Of a stretch of 5,376 nt of DNA, positions 4,432 to 4,434 are shown in pieces. Location: NCBI GenBank assembly GCA_021784635.1, contig JAJYHS010000104.1:1-5376 (forward strand), read 5' to 3'. The notes beneath the pieces were generated by a model. It did no database searches. It was not told where the DNA came from and was given only the letters and a program-made list of their open reading frames with translations. Position 1 is the stretch's first letter. Every line of letters starts with the position of its first letter. The stretch comes from a bacterium (GTDB taxonomy: Bacteria > Bdellovibrionota > Bdellovibrionia > Bdellovibrionales > UBA1609). The position numbers were made by a program, and so were the translations under genes.

Positions 4432-4434
<3 letters not shown>
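3127..4434 (+). CDS. guaB: Inosine-5'-monophosphate dehydrogenase GuaB, prematurely stopped at codon 436
   Basis: GuaB oxidises IMP to XMP with NAD+, the first committed step to GMP. The sequence opens with ALTFDDILLIPEYS and MPILSAAMDTVTE (barrel start). A Bateman module of two CBS domains follows at about 99-212 (MITDPITLSPDHLVSDAL; VMTKEGLVTAQVGTTLAEA). Then come VDSAHGHS, VAGNVVTPEG and the catalytic loop GPGSICTTR with C309. IADGGIKFSGD and the flap GSKDRY with the R405-Y406 dyad are also present. Normal family length is about 485-490 residues, but here TAA at 4432-4434 ends the protein at 435. In the same frame, codons 437-494 (to TAG 4609-4611) match the missing C-terminus. The expected full gene is thus 3127-4611. 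The truncated product lacks the Glu-Ser-His segment that helps build the potassium site of the neighbouring subunit, so activity is doubtful. This could be a nonsense mutation, a sequencing error or read-through. Confidence 0.93.

Follow-up and report, generated by a model that had tools for sequence, protein, structure and literature searches.

The in-frame TAA that interrupts guaB at codon 436 (4432..4434, plus strand) is, with a probability of about 90%, a local base error in a fragmentary assembly and not a feature of the organism's biology. The window analysed here has 5,376 nucleotides and is the entire contig C115 of the draft genome G000. The stop is truly present in the sequence as given but most likely absent from the organism, the cells of which probably make an ordinary full-length IMP dehydrogenase. 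A base error is favoured because near-identical copies of the gene are intact, because four changes private to the window fall within 16 codons, and because a second contig of the same assembly, C195, contradicts the window at position 5355.

The G000 assembly contains 1,671,848 bases in 297 contigs, is 76% complete and is fragmentary. Contig C115 carries the end of an unnamed gene and an unnamed minus-strand frame (164-694, 176 codons), which matched no NCBIfam or Pfam family at an E value of 0.001. The further genes on the contig are miaB, a bifunctional-nuclease-domain gene, a gamma-carbonic-anhydrase-like gene, guaB and the first half of guaA, and no second match to the first 1000 bases of the window was found elsewhere in G000. 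Counted without regard to the internal TAA, the guaB frame (3127..4611, plus strand) has 494 codons and a terminator; it opens with ATG at 3127 and, past the TAA, is uninterrupted as far as the TAG at 4609-4611. The start codon of guaA, a GTG at 4615, lies downstream of this terminator, and the first 254 codons of guaA (4615..5376, plus strand) are truncated by the contig end, with the remainder on contig C195. The overlap between C115 and C195 was left unjoined in the assembly, and guaA is split between both contigs.

Codons 1-435 of guaB scored 571 bits against the IMP dehydrogenase model TIGR01302 (cut-off 481.5), and reached the family score. The 58 codons that follow the stop (4435..4608, plus strand) encode IMP dehydrogenase in the unchanged frame and matched four IMPDH/GMP-reductase models at their C-terminal ends, without exceeding the whole-protein cut-off of any. 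The frame and the profile matches bear out the description in the earlier note, which had placed the TAA inside guaB with IMPDH on both sides; its position for the natural end of the gene, at 4611 and 3 nt ahead of guaA, also holds. The C-terminal segment is in frame yet lies behind the TAA, so that the contig as written does not carry it as an intact part of an IMP dehydrogenase. This segment includes the motif ESHVHD, a putative source of potassium ligands for the adjacent IMPDH subunit. An IMPDH active site that holds a potassium ion and is formed by adjacent chains has been described (PMC4342496).

We compared guaB codons 1-435 with 5.8 billion proteins, of which 8000 candidates were scored and the best 120 were listed, the window itself being first. 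The next three matches (P0002, P0003 and P0004) were 494 residues long, 99% identical and unbroken at the level of protein comparison, and came from records with longest contigs of 67.6, 13.4 and 6.8 kb, respectively. Their identity suggests that they are from the same species as the window. In each of them the position of the window's stop is occupied by an amino acid, and each continues to the same C-terminal end as the window frame, contrary to the prospect that relatives might lack the downstream homology; P0002 scored 609 bits against TIGR01302. An artefactual lesion should be missing from near-identical copies elsewhere, and this one is missing from each of the three. Alignment to them also confirmed that the sequences before and after the stop join without insertion or deletion, and the alignment of relatives around the stop that the earlier note had proposed showed a sense residue at position 436 in all 119 other listed proteins.

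The stop is accompanied by other unusual codons. We called a reading private if it was absent from all 119 other listed proteins in the alignment, and left out position 495, which the script also flagged, as the natural terminator. Private readings occurred in guaB at codons 423, 430, 436 and 438 only, with none in the remainder of the gene, and all four thus lie in a stretch of 16 codons (4393..4440, plus strand). The consensus residue of the relatives at these positions is shared by 118, 119, 106 and 119 of the 119, respectively, and the remaining 13 at codon 436 have a similar aliphatic residue. Four codons placed at random would span 16 or fewer with a probability of about 9e-5 (once in roughly 10,000), or 1.1e-4 when drawn only from columns conserved at 97% or more. 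Each private change can be reached from the commonest residue of the relatives by exactly one single-base path, and all four are transversions. Across the 230 strongly conserved columns of guaB (at least 97% agreement), a single relative among the 119 had two departures within 16 codons and none had three, compared with three departures and the stop in the window. Judged from the alignment, the TAA does not stand alone but belongs to a group of four anomalous codons close together. Private changes that are locally clustered and blind to conservation are what marks an artefact, and the four codons within 16 have both properties; such a cluster would be expected if a single read had contributed a series of miscalls. 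Neither a lone nonsense mutation nor the slow decay of a dead gene is expected to leave four clustered private changes at conserved codons.

The same assembly provides a second reading of part of the contig. The last 148 bases of the window (5229..5376, plus strand) are identical to the end of C195 at 147 positions, the single mismatch, a transversion, being at 5355. The window base at 5355 specifies a residue found in none of 10 GuaA relatives, nine of which share one residue while one has another. C115 therefore holds at least one base that is contradicted by its own assembly, and the mismatch may be either an error or a strain variant. MiaB, encoded on the same contig, differed at 2 of 423 residues from P0121, the record of which has a longest contig of 67,581 bases, like that of P0002; against 120 relatives a single one of its 445 residues was private, and it departed from strongly conserved columns twice, at sites 104 residues apart. 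For the other genes the relatives were few and distant and the comparison is weak, with 10 private residues in the carbonic anhydrase and 12 in the nuclease-domain protein (each against 11 loci, more distant ones for the former), and 20 in the GuaA part (against 10 relatives). These counts neither help nor hurt the reading of the stop as an artefact.

To place the lesion against a background, 40 further G000 contigs (332,873 bases, each of 2.5-12 kb) were compared with 800,000 bases of G005, which gave 82 best non-overlapping alignments on 18 of the 41 contigs, the window included. Stops were present inside 10 of the 82 alignments. In nine of these, all stops fell in the first 46 columns of the stop-to-stop frames, and are taken to lie upstream of the start codon; guaB was the sole alignment interrupted far from its start, at column 446 of 503. 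Besides guaB, one frameshift was seen, in a gene on contig C10 (L142 4-1514; permease-like by the appearance of its sequence) that is split between two frames relative to G005. Frame lesions thus do occur in the G000 sample, if rarely, and the assembly is not poor throughout. Where an alignment reached the end of the related frame, we tallied the next stop, which in 71 cases was TAG 26 times, TAA 23 times and TGA 22 times.

The main alternative is that one strain has recently acquired a genuine nonsense mutation, with GuaB ending at residue 435 and the cell living on salvaged purines. We consider this unlikely. Two proteins of G000 exceeded the cut-off for hypoxanthine phosphoribosyltransferase, a positive outcome of the search for salvage genes that the earlier note had recommended, and these predicted enzymes would make a real loss more tolerable. 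Hypoxanthine phosphoribosyltransferases often also accept guanine, and with two of them predicted, the cell might survive without a working guaB. Contig C14 encodes a second member of the IMPDH family (L002 1492-2535), 347 residues long, in a frame with no stop; many of the listed relatives also have a shorter match of this kind, and the C14 protein matched nothing in NCBIfam at the strict threshold of 1e-100. Against a nonsense mutation, a single event would not add three further private changes to near-invariant positions in a 16-codon stretch and spare the rest of the protein, the near-identical copies are intact, and the adjoining guaA is free of stops in the portion on C115. A fuller version of this account, in which closely spaced guaB mutations have only recently deprived a Bdellovibrionales strain of de novo guanine synthesis, while sister strains keep the gene, and the strain obtains purines from prey or surroundings through the two hypoxanthine phosphoribosyltransferases, accommodates the cluster and is less probable again.

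Broken guaB genes in other drafts of the group could also be taken to favour a real loss. We examined 109 related guaB loci, 29 from whole genomes and 80 of 170 from named contigs, with some records shared between the two. Stops were counted solely between residues 12 and 485, since the query reaches residue 494 and many of the listed stops are probably natural terminators. None of the 109 loci had a stop at codon 436. One related draft locus, cut by the contig start (L053 3-1325, probably genome G011), had in-frame stops at residues 74 and 458 in P0002 numbering; L101 had one stop, at residue 219; and a draft of the same genus (L069 4001-5330, judged by contig and position to be probably genome G001) had a frameshift between residues 331 and 346, followed by the contig end. 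The loci of L069 and L053 are both cut by contig ends as well as broken. A genus-wide loss of guaB was considered from these three loci and rejected, as their lesions are at other places and the guaB matches of the other four same-genus genomes, G002-G005, extend to residue 492 with no stop. Lesions at varied sites across draft records fit errors, and real losses in some of them are possible. As controls, MiaB and GuaA were each searched in 59 genomes, and each gave one stop-bearing match among the 56 genomes with a match (G022 and G049, respectively), in both cases beginning at a contig end.

Programmed read-through of the TAA, yielding a short and a long GuaB, is a very remote prospect. Downstream of the stop the frame remains open and conserved, as read-through would require, but this conservation is accounted for by the intact copies and needs no read-through. 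The stop is found in none of the 119 listed relatives or the 109 loci, the following 100 bases show no more stable folding than shuffled sequences (z -0.14), and an Rfam scan of the window gave no family match; read-through thus found no support from relatives, folding or the scan. Decoding of TAA as an amino acid, for which this single site is all that speaks, has a practically negligible probability and is rejected, in line with the view of the earlier note: TAA terminates 23 of the 71 sampled genes at a point where the related frame also ends and guaB alone of the 82 alignments has a deep internal stop. Of the three options that the earlier note had left side by side, error is now the best supported, nonsense mutation is weakened, and read-through found no support in these analyses.

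A base error could have arisen if too few reads covered the guaB stretch, so that a run of miscalls, such as those in a poor portion of a read, passed into the consensus sequence. Read literally, the contig would imply guanine auxotrophy, which the species probably does not have. The case illustrates how, when reads are lacking, an internal stop in a draft-genome housekeeping gene can be assessed from near-identical copies, the clustering of private changes and contradicting contig overlaps.

The locus resembles known guaBA pairs with a TIGR01302 GuaB in the sequence that flanks the stop and in the order of the two genes, and differs from known GuaB in that the stop and three nearby codons alone depart from all 119 listed relatives. 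Low coverage and low read quality are reported to introduce false internal stops into bacterial assemblies (Cooley and Wright 2024, PMC11017572). Unlike the artefacts described there, the stop in guaB comes from an assembly whose sample lacks many such stops, and low coverage is here our inference. It shares with the spurious internal-stop pseudogenes of that account a conserved gene, a fragmentary assembly and near-identical genes that are intact elsewhere, and the guaB case fits this known kind of artefact as it is set out there.
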